Shown: in pieces, positions 5,581 to 36,907 of the stretch | Layout of the letters: each line of letters opens with the position of its first letter | Position numbering within the stretch: the first letter of the stretch is position 1 | Assembly (NCBI GenBank): GCA_001443495.1 | Contig: LDXR01000007.1 | Span: 1 to 64,000 of the forward strand | Direction: 5' to 3' | DNA length: 64,000 bases | From: a candidate division NC10 bacterium CSP1-5 | GTDB taxonomy: Bacteria > Methylomirabilota > Methylomirabilia > Methylomirabilales > CSP1-5 | Made by a program: the position numbers and the translations under genes | The notes under the pieces: model-generated | What the model saw: only the letters and a program-made list of their open reading frames with translations | What the model was told of the DNA's origin: nothing | Database searches by the model: none

Positions 5581-5777
5581 GGCCCGCTGCCTCCCTCCCT
5601 TCAGTCCCCATCTCGCCTCTGGAGTATCTTCCACTCCATCCGGGGTGTCAAGCGTCACGGGTGCCGAGGGCCGTGCTGGCACTTAACTTGCAGAAACTAG
5701 ACATACGACCCGATGCAGGTCCACTTTTCTCCCCCTCTCCCTTCGCGGGACAAGTTGCGGTCCGGCGGGAGTCAGCC

Positions 5778-8231
5778 ATGAACCGACATCTGGCAAGCCT
5801 TCGAGCGCTCGCGGAGTCGGCGTTTGATCTTGCAGGGGACCTCTCCTGCGAGGCGGTGCTCCAAAGGATTATAGAGCGGGCCGTCGAGCTGGTCGGCTGC
5901 CGATACGGGGCCCTTGTCATCCTGGACGGTGGGGGCCAGATCGCCGAGTTCTACACGGCCGGGATCGATCCGCCCGCCCAGGCTGCGATCAGCCACCTGG
6001 CCGCGTGGAAGGGGACCCTGGGCATCAGCCTCCGCGAGCAGAGGATTCTGCGGGTGGGCGATCTCGCCCGATATCCCCGCCCTCCGAGCTTTTCCCCACG
6101 CCATCCTCCCATGAAGAGCTTCCTGGGGATTCCTGTGTCGGCGCAAGGGCAACTGCTTGGAGAGCTCTATCTCGCCGAGAAGCAGGGGGATAGATGGTTC
6201 AGCGCGGAGGATGAGGCCTTCGTCGGTGCCCTCGCCCGCCAGGCGGCCATTGCCATCAGGAATGCCCACCTCTACGCTGAGGCCCAGGAGGGGGCCAGGC
6301 AGGCCCAGGCTGGCGCTCTTCAGCTCAGGCGGCTCGGCGCCTCTGCAGCGCAGATCACCTCCCAACCCGATCTCGTGCAGAACCTGGACCGGCTCGCGGC
6401 GATTATGGCGGAGGCCTGCGGGGCGCAACGGTGCGCGATTGTGCTGGTGGACGGGGAACGGCCGGGGCTGGTCCGGACAGCGGTCGTCGGCCTTCAGGCT
6501 GAATGTGTCGAGGCGATCGCCAGCCTCCCCCTCGGGCCCGCTGCGGCCTGCTTTGGGACCGCGGAGCATCCGAACGACCTCGTGATCATCGAGGATACCC
6601 ACACCGATCCTTTGACCATCCCCCATCTCCACCGCCTCGAGGCCTGTGGGCTGCGATCGATCTGGTCGGTCCCCATGCGGAGCCGCGAGGGAAGGGTGCT
6701 GGGGACGTTCATGGCGTTTGCGAGCCAGCCCGCTCGCCCGGGCCACGAGCAGGTGGAGATCGCGACCGTGTATGCCCGCCACGTCGCCATCGCTATCGAG
6801 AGCGCCCACTTCTTCCAGCGGATGGAATCGACCAATCGGAGCCTGACGGCTTTGAATCGGGTGGCCCAGACTGTGAACGAGTCGCTGGACCTTCAGGAGA
6901 TCCTCAATGCCGTCCTGGATGCGACGCTGAAGGCGGTCGGCCTCGAGGCGGGCAATATCCGCCTGTGGGATGAACGGGAGGGGGTCTTGACCATGGCCGG
7001 CCACCGGGGAATGAGCGCCGGGTATGTCAATCGGATGCGGCACTTCAGGCCGGGAGAGGGGGTCGCAGGCAAGGTCTTCGAGAGGAGGGAGGTCTTCCTC
7101 GTCGAGGACCTGCGGGAGTATCCGCATCTGAACGATATCGCCCAGAAAGAGGGGGTCCGCTCGGTGGCCAGTATCCCGATCCGCTCCCGCGAAAAGGTCG
7201 TCGGCGTCATGAGCATCCTGAGCCACGGCCAACGTCGGTTCACGCCCGCCGAGATCGATCTCTTGACCGCGATCGGCAACCAGATCGGGACCGCCATCGA
7301 GAATGCCCGCCTGTACCAGGAGGTGCGACGGGCGGCGCTCGAGCTCGAGGCCAAGGTCGAGGAGCGCACCCGCGACCTGGAATCCCTTAACGCGCGGCTC
7401 GAGGAAACCCTGCGCGTCGCCGAAGAAGCCTCGCGCCACAAGTCGGTCTTCTTGGCCAATATGAGCCACGAACTCCGGACCCCTCTGAACGCCATCATCG
7501 GCTTTTCCGAGCTCCTTGAGGACCAACACTTCGGTTCCTTGAACGAGAGGCAGCAGCGCTACGTCGGCAACGTGCTCTCCAGCGGGCGACACCTCCTCGC
7601 CCTCATCAACGATGTCCTCGACATCTCCAAGGTCGAGGCGGGAAAGATCGAGGTGCAGCCCGAGGTCTTTGCTGCAAGGGCGGCCCTGGAGGCCGCGATC
7701 CGCGAGGTGCGGTCTCAGGCGATACGCAGGGGGGTGCGGATGGACCTGGAGATCGAGGAGGGGCTGGCCATGCTCGTTGCCGATCCCCTCCGGTTCAAGC
7801 AAATCCTCTACAACCTCCTCTCGAACGCGGTGAAGTTCACCGATCCGGGTGGAGGTATCCGCCTCTCCGCGCGCATCAGAAGTCTGAAGTCCGAGGTCCG
7901 AGGTCACGCTGACGAGACGGATCTGCAGTTCGGGGGATCACCGACATCGGACATCGGAAATCGGAAATTGGACCTTCACGATGTGGTGGAAATTTCGGTG
8001 GCAGATACGGGGATCGGGATCAAAGCCGAAGACATTCCGAAGCTCTTTCAACCCTTCACCCAGCTCGATGCCTCGCTCGCCCGGAGGTACCAGGGAACCG
8101 GCCTCGGCCTGGCGCTTACCAAGCGGCTCGTCGAGCTGCACGGGGGGCAGATCTGGGCAGAATCCGAAGGCGAGGGCAAAGGGAGCACCTTCACCTTCAC
8201 CTTACCGCTCCGAGGCCAGGTCGCCGCCTAG
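5778..8231 (+). CDS. GAF-domain sensor histidine kinase with in-frame repeat insertion
   Basis: 817 residues without membrane segments: three GAF domains (about 15-165, 200-350, 365-510), a coiled linker, HisKA with phospho-acceptor His564 in NMSHELRTPLNAII, and HATPase with N box (LLSNAVKF), G1 (VADTGIGI) and G2 (GTGLGLAL). Between the N box and G1, residues ~700-735 (7876-7980) are encoded by a degenerate heptanucleotide array that adds ~35 residues in frame. ATG 5778 is chosen because the upstream frame lacks conserved sequence. No receiver domain is attached; its response regulator is unknown. Confidence 0.85.
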   Translation: MNRHLASLRALAESAFDLAGDLSCEAVLQRIIERAVELVGCRYGALVILDGGGQIAEFYTAGIDPPAQAAISHLAAWKGTLGISLREQRILRVGDLARYPRPPSFSPRHPPMKSFLGIPVSAQGQLLGELYLAEKQGDRWFSAEDEAFVGALARQAAIAIRNAHLYAEAQEGARQAQAGALQLRRLGASAAQITSQPDLVQNLDRLAAIMAEACGAQRCAIVLVDGERPGLVRTAVVGLQAECVEAIASLPLGPAAACFGTAEHPNDLVIIEDTHTDPLTIPHLHRLEACGLRSIWSVPMRSREGRVLGTFMAFASQPARPGHEQVEIATVYARHVAIAIESAHFFQRMESTNRSLTALNRVAQTVNESLDLQEILNAVLDATLKAVGLEAGNIRLWDEREGVLTMAGHRGMSAGYVNRMRHFRPGEGVAGKVFERREVFLVEDLREYPHLNDIAQKEGVRSVASIPIRSREKVVGVMSILSHGQRRFTPAEIDLLTAIGNQIGTAIENARLYQEVRRAALELEAKVEERTRDLESLNARLEETLRVAEEASRHKSVFLANMSHELRTPLNAIIGFSELLEDQHFGSLNERQQRYVGNVLSSGRHLLALINDVLDISKVEAGKIEVQPEVFAARAALEAAIREVRSQAIRRGVRMDLEIEEGLAMLVADPLRFKQILYNLLSNAVKFTDPGGGIRLSARIRSLKSEVRGHADETDLQFGGSPTSDIGNRKLDLHDVVEISVADTGIGIKAEDIPKLFQPFTQLDASLARRYQGTGLGLALTKRLVELHGGQIWAESEGEGKGSTFTFTLPLRGQVAA
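7876..7980 (+). repeat. Degenerate heptanucleotide array inside the kinase ATPase domain
   Basis: The bases fall into 15 units of 7 (for example TCTGAAG, TCCGAGG, TCCGAGG near the start and ATCGGAC, ATCGGAA, ATCGGAA, ATTGGAC near the end; the middle is more degenerate). 15 x 7 = 105 bases, a multiple of three, so the kinase frame is kept. The same unit style appears before the gene at 33629 and before hemC and cobA. Confidence 0.75.
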
Positions 8232-26767: not shown

Positions 26768-26886
26768 GATCTTAGACTACTCCGCCCCGTGACATTTTGC
26801 AAGGCGTCTGGCGGGACGCGCGTGGCCGCCCGCCCTGGAATGCTGGAAAGCTTGAAGGCTAGAACACTGCCTCCTCGCTTCCCGGC

Positions 26887-33467: not shown

Positions 33468-33628
33468 CGATGACCGTCGACCGATGACGGGTCTCTATGA
33501 ACGATTGACAGGTCACCATTCACTATGAAGTCTGAACGCTCACCTCGGGTTTCGAACCTCCAACGTCGAACCGCGAACATCGGACCTCAGACGTCGGACT
33601 TTGGACGTCGGACATCGGACTGCCTCTC
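33468..33628 (+). repeat. Heptanucleotide array abutting the ccsA-like start codon
   Basis: Exactly 23 units of 7 bases, for example CGATGAC, TATGAAC, TCTGAAC, TCGAACC, TCGGACC, TCGGACT, TCGGACA, without slippage, ending at 33628 next to ATG 33629. There is no Shine-Dalgarno sequence in the last 20 bases, so the array itself forms the translation leader. Confidence 0.85.
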
Positions 33629-34444
33629 ATGGATGTAATCTTTTTTTACGGGGCCCTGATACTGTATGTCGTGGGGACACTCGCCTATCTGCTCCTCCTC
33701 TGGATCAAAGGCGGCCCCCTCTCCCAGCTCGGCACAGCCGCCACGGTTGGCGGCTTTGCCCTGCACACCCTCGCCCTGCTGGCCCGCCTGATTGCTGCCG
33801 GCCGGCCGCCACTCGGTAATACCTATGAAGCCCTTTCCTTCTTCGCCTGGGCGACGGTCCTGGTGTATCTGGGCCTCGAGCTTCGCTTCCGGCGGAAGGT
33901 CATCGGGGCCTTCGTTCTCCCGATCGTGCTGCTGACGGCGCTCGCCGCGGCCAGCGTGCCGAAAGGGTCCGCGGTATTGAGCCCGGCTTTCCGGAATACG
34001 TGGGTCTGGCTGCATGTTACCTTTGTCCTGTTGGGGAGCGCTGCCCTGGCGCTCACCTGCGGCGTGGGCTTGATGTATCTGTTGCAGGAACGGCAGCTCA
34101 AGTCCAAGAGCCTCGGCGTGATATATTACCGGCTCCCCTCCCTGGACTTTTTGGATGGACTCGGGCACCGGGCGCTCCTGGTGGGCTTTCCCCTGCTCAC
34201 CGCGGGGCTCATCACGGGCGCGATCCAATCCCAGGCCGCCCGGGGCCAGATCCTCATGTGGGACCCGACCCAGCTCCTTTCCCTGGTCACCTGGGTGATT
34301 TACGCGGGGCTCCTGCAGGCCCGGCTTACCGCCGGGTGGCGCGGGCGAAAGGCAGCGCTCTTGGCGATCCTCGGGTTCAGCGCCGTGCTGGCCACCTTTC
34401 TCGGGGTGAGTGTCCTGCTCGGCCGCCCCCATACCTTTAACTGA
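33629..34444 (+). CDS. Cytochrome c assembly protein, CcsA/HemX-like
   Basis: 271 residues, about eight hydrophobic helices. The conserved WD-type region of CcsA reads GQILMWDPTQLLSLVTW, and conserved His residues (ALHTLAL, WLHVTFVL, GHRALLVG) could bind haem. Next to hemA this is the HemX position, where the protein affects haem synthesis or cytochrome c maturation. hemA begins 3 bases after its stop. Confidence 0.82.
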   Translation: MDVIFFYGALILYVVGTLAYLLLLWIKGGPLSQLGTAATVGGFALHTLALLARLIAAGRPPLGNTYEALSFFAWATVLVYLGLELRFRRKVIGAFVLPIVLLTALAAASVPKGSAVLSPAFRNTWVWLHVTFVLLGSAALALTCGVGLMYLLQERQLKSKSLGVIYYRLPSLDFLDGLGHRALLVGFPLLTAGLITGAIQSQAARGQILMWDPTQLLSLVTWVIYAGLLQARLTAGWRGRKAALLAILGFSAVLATFLGVSVLLGRPHTFN

Positions 34445-34447
34445 GCC

Positions 34448-35719
34448 ATGGTGATCCTGACGGTTGGGCTCAATCACACGACAGCGCCGGTGGAGATCCG
34501 GGAGCGCCTCCACCTTTCTGGGACAGCGCTGCCCCCGTTCTTCGAACGCCTCGTACAGGAGGGGGGAGTCAACGAGCGGCTCGTGCTCTCGACCTGTAAC
34601 CGGGTGGAGGTCTATGCGGTCACAGAGAACCCGGAGCACGCCCAGGTGACGATTCCGCGCCTCTTGGCGGAAGGGACCCGGACTCCGCTCGCCCTCTTTG
34701 AAGACCGGCTCTATTGGCATCGCCACGACGCCGCTGTCCGCCACGCATTCCGGGTGGCCGCGAGCCTCGACTCGCTCGTGCTGGGGGAATCTCAGATTCT
34801 GAGCCAGGTCAAGGCGGCGTACGAGGTAGCCCGAGCCCAGGGGGTGACGGGGCCGATCCTGAACACCTTGATGACGCGGTCGTTAGGGGTGGCCAAGAAG
34901 GTGCGGACGGAGACCGGCATCGGGGAGGCAGCGGTCTCGATCCCCTCGGCAGCCATTGGGCTCGCCAAGACGATCTTCGGCGAACTCAGTGGTCGAACGG
35001 TCCTCATCCTGGGGGCTGGCGAGATGGCGGAGGTGGCGGTCCGGCACCTGAGGGGCGAGGGGGTCCAGGCGGTCGTCGTCGCCCATCGTCACTTCGACCG
35101 GGCGGTCGAGATGGCGGCGCAGCTTGAGGGCCGGGCCGTCCGCTTCGACCAGATCCACCAGGAGCTGCTCCAGGCCGACATCGTGTTGAGCTCCACGGCC
35201 GCCCCGCACCATATCGTTCACCGGGCCGACGTAGAGGAGCTTATCCGCCTCCGGCGCAACCGTCCCCTCTTCCTCATCGATATCGCCGTTCCGCGGGATA
35301 TCGATCCTGCAGTGAACGAGATTGATAATGTCTATCTCTATGACATCGATGACCTGGAAGGGGTGGTGGCCGGCCATCGGCTGGCGCGCGAGCGCGAGGC
35401 AGAGCAGGCGGAGCTCTTGATCGATCGGGAGGTGGCGAGCTTCCTCCGCTGGCTCAAGAGTCTCGAGGTGGTCCCCACGCTCGTGATGCTCAGGCGTCAC
35501 CTGGAGGAGATCCGGGAGGCGGAGCTTGCCAAGGCGCTCAGCCGCCTGCCGGGGCTCACCCCCGCCCAGCAGGACGTGGTGCGGACGTTGGCCCACGGCA
35601 TCATCAACAAGGTCCTGCACCACCCCACCACCGAGCTGAAGCGCCAGTCCGTGAACCGCGACGGCCTCCTCTATGTGAGCGCCTTGCGCCGGCTCTTCGG
35701 CCTCCAGGACGACGACTGA
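34448..35719 (+). CDS. hemA: Glutamyl-tRNA reductase
   Basis: 423 residues: VGLNHTTAPVEIRE start, catalytic Cys in LSTCNRVEVYA, LGESQILSQVK, NADPH site LILGAGEMAEVA and the C-terminal dimer helix. First committed step of C5 tetrapyrrole synthesis. GTG/ATG context is clear (ATG 34448). Confidence 0.96.
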   Translation: MVILTVGLNHTTAPVEIRERLHLSGTALPPFFERLVQEGGVNERLVLSTCNRVEVYAVTENPEHAQVTIPRLLAEGTRTPLALFEDRLYWHRHDAAVRHAFRVAASLDSLVLGESQILSQVKAAYEVARAQGVTGPILNTLMTRSLGVAKKVRTETGIGEAAVSIPSAAIGLAKTIFGELSGRTVLILGAGEMAEVAVRHLRGEGVQAVVVAHRHFDRAVEMAAQLEGRAVRFDQIHQELLQADIVLSSTAAPHHIVHRADVEELIRLRRNRPLFLIDIAVPRDIDPAVNEIDNVYLYDIDDLEGVVAGHRLAREREAEQAELLIDREVASFLRWLKSLEVVPTLVMLRRHLEEIREAELAKALSRLPGLTPAQQDVVRTLAHGIINKVLHHPTTELKRQSVNRDGLLYVSALRRLFGLQDDD

Positions 35720-35720
35720 T

Positions 35721-35838
35721 AGCCGATGACCGATGACCGACGACCGCGGACCGGAGATCCTACTTACCCTCCTACGTCATCGGTGAACGGTCATCGGTCA
35801 TCGTGAACGGTGAACCATGAACCGTGAACTGCGAATTG
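35721..35838 (+). repeat. Heptanucleotide array with a 16-bp perfect inverted repeat before hemC
   Basis: Units such as GACCGAT, GACCGAC and GACCGCG (35728-35755) and TCATCGG, TGAACGG, TGAACCA, TGAACCG (35777-35838) follow a 7-base grid with one slip at 35803. CGATGACCGATGACCG (35724-35739) pairs perfectly with 35788-35803. The grid crosses the hemC ATG (35817) and encodes its first residues. Confidence 0.8.
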
Positions 35839-36767
35839 GCACTCGGGGGAGCCTGCTCGCCGTCGCGCAGGCGGAGCGGGTCGCGAGCGAGCTCAGGCGC
35901 AGGTACCCGGAGCTTACGCCGGTGCTGGTGAAGATCAAGACCAGCGGCGATATGTTCGCCCACATCCCCCTGTCTCACGTGGGGGGCAAAGGGCTCTTCA
36001 TCAAGGAGATCGAGGAGGCCCTGTTGGATGGTCAAGTGGACGTGGCGGTCCACAGCATGAAGGACGTCCCGACCGAGATCGCCCCGGGCCTCAGCATTGC
36101 CGCTATTCTCGAGCGAGAAGACGCGTCCGACGTCCTCATCTCGCGCCGGGGAGAGAAACTGGATGCTCTGCCCTCCGGCGCCAGGATCGGCACGAGCAGT
36201 CTGAGGCGGCAGGCCCAGCTCCTGCATTTTCGGCCCGACCTGACCGTGGTGCCGCTCCGGGGGAACCTGGATACTCGGCTGAGGAAACTCGACACCGAGG
36301 GACTCGACGCCTTAGTGGTTGCGGCTGCCGGGGTAAACCGCCTCGGGCGGCAGCAGGAGATCACGGAGGTGCTCCCGCTCGAGATCAGCCTCCCCGCTGT
36401 CGGCCAGGGGGCCCTCGGCCTAGAGATTCGTGCACACGATCAGCGGGTACGCGACCTGGTCGAGCCCATGACTCACGGGCCGAGTGCCTTGACGATTGCT
36501 GCGGAGCGGGCCTTCCTCAAGCGGCTCGGAGGGGGATGTCAGGTTCCGATCGCCGCGTATGGGCGGCTCGAGGGGGCCGAGCTTCGTCTCGTGGCACTGG
36601 TGATCAATCCGGACGGGACCGGGGTGGTCCGCGGCGAACGGAAGGGGCCCAGCGCCCTCGCCGAGGAGATCGGGTTCGCCATTGGGGAAGAGCTACTGCG
36701 GCGTGGGGCGGATCGGATCATCCGGGAGCTTTCCGGCACAACCCTCGAGCCTCCCGCCGCCCCCTGA
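35817..36767 (+). CDS. hemC: Hydroxymethylbilane synthase
   Basis: 316 residues. LRIGTRGSLLAVAQAE, DVAVHSMKDVP, the Arg-rich GTSSLRRQAQLL and the dipyrromethane-cofactor Cys in GGGCQVPIAAYG are present. Condenses four porphobilinogens. The first codons (MNREL) derive from the heptad array, leaving the family core to begin at LRIGTRGS. Confidence 0.96.
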   Translation: MNRELRIGTRGSLLAVAQAERVASELRRRYPELTPVLVKIKTSGDMFAHIPLSHVGGKGLFIKEIEEALLDGQVDVAVHSMKDVPTEIAPGLSIAAILEREDASDVLISRRGEKLDALPSGARIGTSSLRRQAQLLHFRPDLTVVPLRGNLDTRLRKLDTEGLDALVVAAAGVNRLGRQQEITEVLPLEISLPAVGQGALGLEIRAHDQRVRDLVEPMTHGPSALTIAAERAFLKRLGGGCQVPIAAYGRLEGAELRLVALVINPDGTGVVRGERKGPSALAEEIGFAIGEELLRRGADRIIRELSGTTLEPPAAP

Positions 36768-36788
36768 TCCGTGCATGGATCAGCGCGA

Positions 36789-36907
36789 GTGGCCGGTGGA
36801 TGGTGGCTAGTGGCTGGTGCCTTTCAATCAATCACCAACCACCAAACACTAACCACCTCTGAACCCTGAACTCTGAACCGTGAACGATGAAGCATGAGCG
36901 CTGAACG
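36789..36907 (+). repeat. Heptanucleotide array with long imperfect stem before cobA
   Basis: Seventeen units in perfect register: GTGGCCG, GTGGATG, GTGGCTA, GTGGCTG at first, complementary ATCACCA, ACCACCA, ACCACCT next, then CTGAACC, CTGAACT, GTGAACG, ATGAAGC. The GTGG and CCAC halves can fold on each other. The unit at 36894-36900 contains the cobA ATG. Confidence 0.85.

Follow-up and report, generated by a model that had tools for sequence, protein, structure and literature searches.

A histidine kinase gene of the candidate division NC10 bacterium CSP1-5 carries, in frame within its ATPase domain, two inverted arms of degenerate seven-base units (heptads). The gene lies in the 64,000 nucleotides (nt) analysed here (contig LDXR01000007.1, positions 1 to 64,000 of the forward strand; the window). 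The arms keep a 7-nt period, arrays of the same kind reuse the same codon sites across the order Methylomirabilales, and at a fixed site one heptad class is replaced wholesale by another. On balance, and with reservations, we favour the reading that the kinase cassette belongs to a genome-wide, mostly intergenic population of such arrays, which within genes are confined to loops tolerating any hydrophilic sequence.

An inverted heptad cassette in a histidine kinase gene

The Pfam scores of the kinase are 1.9e-23 for HisKA and 7.9e-29 for HATPase_c, and its fold matches GacS and HK853. SHELRTPL, NLLSNAVKFT, DTGIGI and GTGLGL are all present in the sequence, which thus holds a HisKA domain with the phospho-accepting histidine and a HATPase_c domain with N, G1 and G2 boxes. 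The N box (NLLSNAVKFT, ~7812-7841) precedes the cassette and the G1 box (DTGIGI, ~8004-8021) follows it, with the reading frame preserved. A previous sequence-only reading had described 15 seven-base units at 7876-7980. The 7-base period is real and in frame, but it is carried by two separate runs with an aperiodic stretch between them (Table 1), and the inversion of the arms had been overlooked: the first arm follows the formula (GTCYGAR)n, the second (TCGGAMA)n, so that the heptads of the second run belong to the class that is reverse-complementary to the first (6/7 match, TCCGANN versus NNTCGGA).

Repetition at the protein level cannot yield a lag-7 signal because 7 is not a multiple of 3. 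Moreover, the lag-7 score of the kinase segment is 18.6, whereas 2000 synonymous recodings reach 14.6 at most. Hence the array is a feature of the nucleotides, although it lies in coding sequence. A downstream segment, GATTTC-GTG-GAAATC, was dropped as a candidate part of the cassette, as DFVEI is encoded by codons that are palindromic on their own.

The loop is exchanged as a block

Comparison of the window kinase with its orthologues in two related genomes, G005 and G004, reveals 93-94% identity over the 900 nt preceding and the 200 nt following the loop, whereas identity within the loop is 0.48 and 0.47, respectively, which is the level of shuffled sequences (mean 0.45-0.47). The two orthologues have a common loop of the GTTCA class (identity 0.67). 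Thus, the whole 114-nt loop, including both arms and the spacer, has been exchanged while the gene was barely altered. The best match to the complete window cassette is a stretch of G005 outside the kinase gene, which is 74% identical and of the same class.

Between two paralogous kinases of a third genome, G006, identity amounts to 85-95% over the array and its edges and mostly to 50-70% elsewhere. Divergent kinase pairs with near-identical arrays and edges are L012/L017 in G006 and L011/L022 in G002. Judged from sequence, this sharing between paralogues suggests gene conversion, of which it is the expected outcome.

Heptad classes match (at least 6/7) in 43% of comparisons between different genes of the same genome, but only in 16% between genomes for the same gene and in 14% when both differ. 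When genome labels were permuted within gene and family, 0 of 5000 permutations reached the observed mean, both overall and in family f6. An array therefore keeps its position through inheritance of the gene, and in f6 its sequence tends to follow the genome.

Codon sites are reused across the order

Many of the genomes compared are incomplete assemblies, and kinase orthology in families f2 and f3 is defined by best match only. The proposal that this type of repeat enters coding sequence is borne out by in-frame arrays in hisF, carA, pyrK, nuoEF and many kinases. In the scan for 7-base periodicity inside genes that had been suggested, 19 of 65 arrays (862 kb) fall within long open frames whose flanks look coding, although not every one of these frames need be a gene. 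Secure coding hosts according to family models are hisF (TIGR00735), carA (TIGR01368), pyrK (three arrays in one gene) and a nuoE-nuoF fusion, in addition to the kinases.

In hisF the site AIDAKR^W[EQ]VY harbours an array in most members of f1 (the family of the window), f2, f5 and f6, i.e. in 15 or more of the 20 genomes compared. Compared with HisF-LUCA (4evz), the array lengthens the protein by about 22 residues following AIDAKR. The classes found at this one site include GTTCAGG, GTCCGAA, GTCCAGA/CCCTCAG, GAGCCGA, GTTTCGA, GTGTCAA/CACCCCA and GTGCGAG/CCCGCAC. A short form of 22-23 residues occurs in G018 (f4) and G017 (f3), and G030 is nearly short. Over the 22-residue baseline the hisF arrays add 66, 72 or 93 nt, which contradicts the earlier rule that the length must be a multiple of 21. 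The net length need only be divisible by 3, and the difference is made up by the spacer.

Arrays are likewise found at one codon site of carA, in about 20 of 25 genomes, with differing classes and grouped around a QLxLF motif. In the readable sequences of sister families the carA linker is short and lacks QLxLF. The carA linkers of L240-L264 hold QLxLF flanked by a heptad arm on each side, and this applies to almost every family of the order. The pentapeptide resembles the β-clamp-binding consensus. In pyrK, arrays of two or more classes follow MGCVIP in f1 and f5 and are absent from f2 and f6.

The kinases of f1, f4, f5 and f6 carry arrays at the turn that separates the N box from the G1 box, mostly with 62-63 residues from one box to the other, and no heptads are present in this loop in 80 kinase relatives from other phyla. 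The earlier description of the kinase array as an insertion named, as its refuting observation, orthologues with an unrelated loop of equal length lacking the 7-base period. Related kinases of f2 and f3 partly supply this, since their N box-G1 loops comprise 46-66 residues without such a period, and as far as these alignments go the long kinase loop may predate the heptads. In hisF, arrays do lengthen the loop. In kinases of the GTTCA class, the single in-phase TGA of the 3' arm reads TCA, TGC, TCG, TTC or TCC across genes, while the out-of-phase TGAACC units remain intact.

Arrays throughout the source genome

The source genome (G000) contains at least 65 heptad arrays in 862 kb. Runs at lag 7 with a score of at least 12 number 66, compared with 0-3 each for lags 4, 5, 10, 11 and 13. 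Many classes coexist in this genome, including GTTCANN, GTCCGAN, GTCAGCN, GTCATCG, GTGATTR, GTGGCTN and others. The pattern GTTCANNGTTCANNGTTCA has 124 matches in the source genome, its reversed control none, and it is abundant in families f1, f5 and f6; three successive TGAAACC units have no match in the source genome. Neighbouring arms are reverse-complementary (at least 6/7) in 20 of 28 pairs, compared with 8% for random arm pairs, and in 2 of 13 in a sample of genome G024. Arm inversion is thus frequent, not universal. Where the order of arms in coding arrays could be decided, the GT-type arm leads in 40 of 44 cases and follows in 4.

The intergenic arrays noted earlier near 33468, 35721 and 36789 of the window are real, although two of them extend over the start codon of the gene that follows (Table 1). 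TGAACCN heptads at 35803-35846 and 36855-36897 cross the start codons of these two successive genes, the first codons of which are therefore heptad-derived.

Table 1. Positions of the kinase cassette and of the intergenic heptad arrays in the window
Feature	Position	Strand	Description
Histidine kinase open reading frame (ORF), cassette in frame	5661..8231	+	856 residues; GAF x3, HisKA, HATPase_c
5' arm	7876..7905	+	~4 degenerate heptads, consensus GTCCGAA (TCAGAAGTCTGAAGTCCGAGGTCCGAGGTC); lag-7 run score 16.7
Spacer without 7-base period, ~35 nt	7906..7940	+	
3' arm	7941..7976	+	~5 degenerate heptads, consensus ATCGGAC; lag-7 run score 18.7
Intergenic array, mixed heptads TCGAACC / TCGGACN	33552..33620	.	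just upstream of ORF at 33629
Intergenic inverted cassette, CCGATGA then GGTCATC arm, then TGAACCN heptads	35716..35846	.	overlaps start codon of ORF 35817 (hemC-like by reading)
Intergenic inverted cassette, GTGGCTG then CACCAAC arm, then TGAACCN heptads	36785..36897	.	reaches start codon of ORF 36894

Predicted structure of the kinase loop

In an AlphaFold model of kinase residues 560-856 the mean predicted local distance difference test (pLDDT) score is 85, while the array-encoded residues score 44-69 and form the turn of a β-hairpin between strands 173-182 and 215-223. This turn comprises about 36 residues in the window kinase compared with about 10 in the solved GacS kinase. The array probably encodes a disordered loop according to this model, and its location at a low-confidence turn agrees with the earlier view that the N box-G1 loop is permissive.

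It had also been proposed that the insertion changes kinase activity or ADP binding, given that the cassette lies within HATPase_c between the N box and the G1 box. Nothing indicates such an effect, and we consider it very improbable. The second strand runs from the turn towards G1 and has the G1 aspartate at its opposite end, which in the model would place the turn about 8 strand residues away from the aspartate and the nucleotide site. Furthermore, orthologues hold unrelated loops, as do hisF and carA, whose chemistry is unrelated. The cassette is thus probably a tolerated disordered loop that is unlikely to regulate ADP binding.

The RNA of the kinase stretch folds with -44.9 kcal/mol (z -2.1 versus dinucleotide shuffles). 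Across ~65 loops, folding energies are not systematically lower than those of synonymous recodings, a test weakened by the GC-rich recoding null. A conserved mRNA hairpin is not supported as a general rule, as the free energies scatter about the mean of the recodings.

Proposed origin and exchange of the cassettes

In the reading that we favour, the arms would grow and homogenise through 7-nt slippage and template switching between the arms. Whole cassettes would be exchanged among sites via ectopic recombination or gene conversion, and this exchange could spread the abundant class of a genome to its other sites. Within genes, the only role of selection would be to maintain an open frame, to remove stops that fall in phase and to prevent the loop from becoming structured.

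Several points weigh against this reading. Growth and homogenisation of the arms by slippage and template switching are not seen directly. No exact donor of the window cassette was found among the seven genomes of the family. Within f1 itself 3888 of 5000 permutations reach the observed class agreement, and for this reason a rule that class follows genome throughout the order was rejected. In carA the arms flank QLxLF, which family f3 retains as QMDLF without any heptads, and simple insertion of a cassette fails to explain this. Finally, the replacement of in-phase stops indicates tolerance under translation and is not proof of selection, since it is partly guaranteed by picking open frames.

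Alternatively, the arrays may be mobile palindromic elements, i.e. non-autonomous hairpin transposons resembling repetitive extragenic palindromes (REP), Rickettsia palindromic elements (RPE) or miniature inverted-repeat transposable elements, which insert as units with a transposase acting in trans, the frame being maintained by selection. The fixed two-arm architecture, the predominance of the GT-type arm in first position and the related cassette outside the kinase gene in a sister genome are in line with this view. It is further supported by a REP-like palindrome within the carA array of G006, an in-frame addition of 24 nt that is absent from G002, and by the precedent of Rickettsia (PMC10969869). 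Transposition of this kind nevertheless appears unlikely to us, although it is the strongest of the alternatives. There is no conserved sequence family, and the classes at one site differ wholly between genomes. Reuse of the same codon in distant species would demand an extreme site preference. In array carriers such as G025, G028 and G031 Y1_Tnp is not detected, although other transposase families were not searched. A dedicated Y1 transposase of the REP-associated tyrosine transposase (RAYT) type is unsupported, as Y1 transposases do not track the arrays.

A further possibility is that the heptads are selected binding sites, each genome having a binder, either protein or RNA, specific for the heptad of that genome, with the dialect shifting as the binder changes. 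In f6 the class follows the genome and the window arrays abut start codons, as would be expected for such sites. Paired tandem repeats were proposed as sites of a global regulator in Geobacter (PMC2700814), and hairpins of short tandemly repeated repetitive (STRR) sequences as transcript stabilisers (PMC2670836). We regard this explanation as improbable, since several classes coexist per genome, the RNA of the loops does not fold systematically more stably than synonymous recodings, and the internal sites of hisF or carA lack an obvious regulatory logic. Equally doubtful is the more general proposal that, across this order, every genome acquires a heptad dialect of its own from some process acting in trans or genome-wide, and that this process writes the dialect again and again into a fixed set of sites, some of them within core biosynthetic enzymes; the gene would then determine the position and the genome the sequence.

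Relation to known heptad repeats

Heptanucleotide repeats are known from the P6b element of the Nostoc tRNA-Leu(UAA) intron (Costa et al. 2002, as described in PMC3488679). Degenerate 7-nt repeats are present there at a fixed place with two arms pairing as a hairpin, class 1 and class 2 alternate at one place between strains, copy number varies and other elements are inserted within. In contrast to the arrays described here, that element is a group I intron RNA and not protein-coding, and only two classes are reported for it, whereas there are many here. Likewise, the cyanobacterial STRR heptamers are intergenic 7-bp tandem repeats that often form hairpins and are of unknown function (PMC2670836). 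Degenerate 7-nt tandem units and two complementary arms, two features of the STRR and trnL-P6b type, are found here as well (20/28 in G000 and 2/13 in G024, as above). STRR and trnL-P6b repeats are non-coding, however, while the present arrays lie in frame in kinase, hisF, carA and pyrK genes.

In Geobacter metallireducens four or five tandem hepta- or octanucleotides occur mostly as opposite-strand pairs, including the heptad family GGACCGG with 49 copies within and between genes. These families have one consensus each in a single species, and the available part of the report (PMC2700814) does not describe conservation of sites across species or class switching. Rickettsia palindromic elements, like the arrays here, are palindromic and lie in frame in unrelated metabolic genes. 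Their sequence and peptide are conserved over ~150 bp, whereas here only period and architecture are conserved (PMC10969869). The tandem repeats of Borgs also evolve fast, occur in and between genes and create disordered protein regions, but their units are perfect and directly head-to-tail, in contrast to the degenerate, inverted 7-nt units described here (PMC9879509). The TAACTGA repeats of Beggiatoaceae similarly lie just upstream of start codons, although near variants are rare there (PMC4679880).

A literature search of partial coverage found no report of conserved in-frame sites in core enzymes together with class replacement, and none of such arrays in Methylomirabilis. It is this combination of conserved in-frame sites with replacement of the sequence class that is new here, the other features being known singly from Nostoc, STRR, Geobacter and Rickettsia. 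Repeats of 7 bp rank among the commonest unexplained repeats of bacteria. As the fixed codons in hisF, carA and the kinases hold unrelated heptads, their origin, turnover and spread can be traced against well-aligned flanks, and the long-standing question of what generates heptads and whether they move as units becomes directly testable with existing genomes. The arrays also show one way in which disordered loops originate in proteins and are exchanged as whole blocks, which calls for caution in assigning function to such loops.

Further repeat families

Inverted tandem repeats built on 8-base units (~GCTAGRAN / NTYCTAGC) form a second family in the source genome, located in the window at 26835-26868 and elsewhere at L083:2069-2130, L098:18399-18494, L100:16434-16522 and L104:409-530. 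The underlying process is therefore not limited to 7 bases. This bears on a reverse-transcriptase- or telomerase-like writer, which might add heptads from a template of the genome at breaks or hairpins and thereby generate species-specific dialects. The constant unit of 7 nt, the polarity of the arms (40 versus 4) and, in f6, the class common to unlinked genes could be explained in this way. A fixed 7-nt template would not produce octads, however, and multiple classes per genome argue against it as well. No writer enzyme or template came to light, although no search was aimed at either; of all the explanations weighed here we hold a templated writer to be the least credible.

A REP-like palindrome (~ACTTCGGCGAGCTCAGYCGAGCCG) lies within arrays of several classes, at L071:11472, L083:6712, L096:6928 and L104:2642, and also in L002, L003, L243 and L270. 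In the kinase loop of G019 (L205) the perfect palindrome GTAGCTCAGGGCTTAAGCCCTGAGCTAC forms, in frame, the inner loop of a GTCCGAA-class cassette. Finally, G024 contains inverted pairs of degenerate GTTTAGG-like heptads (L301:8043-8181 and L314:15153-15244), whose unit is the plant telomere repeat TTTAGGG in rotated form.
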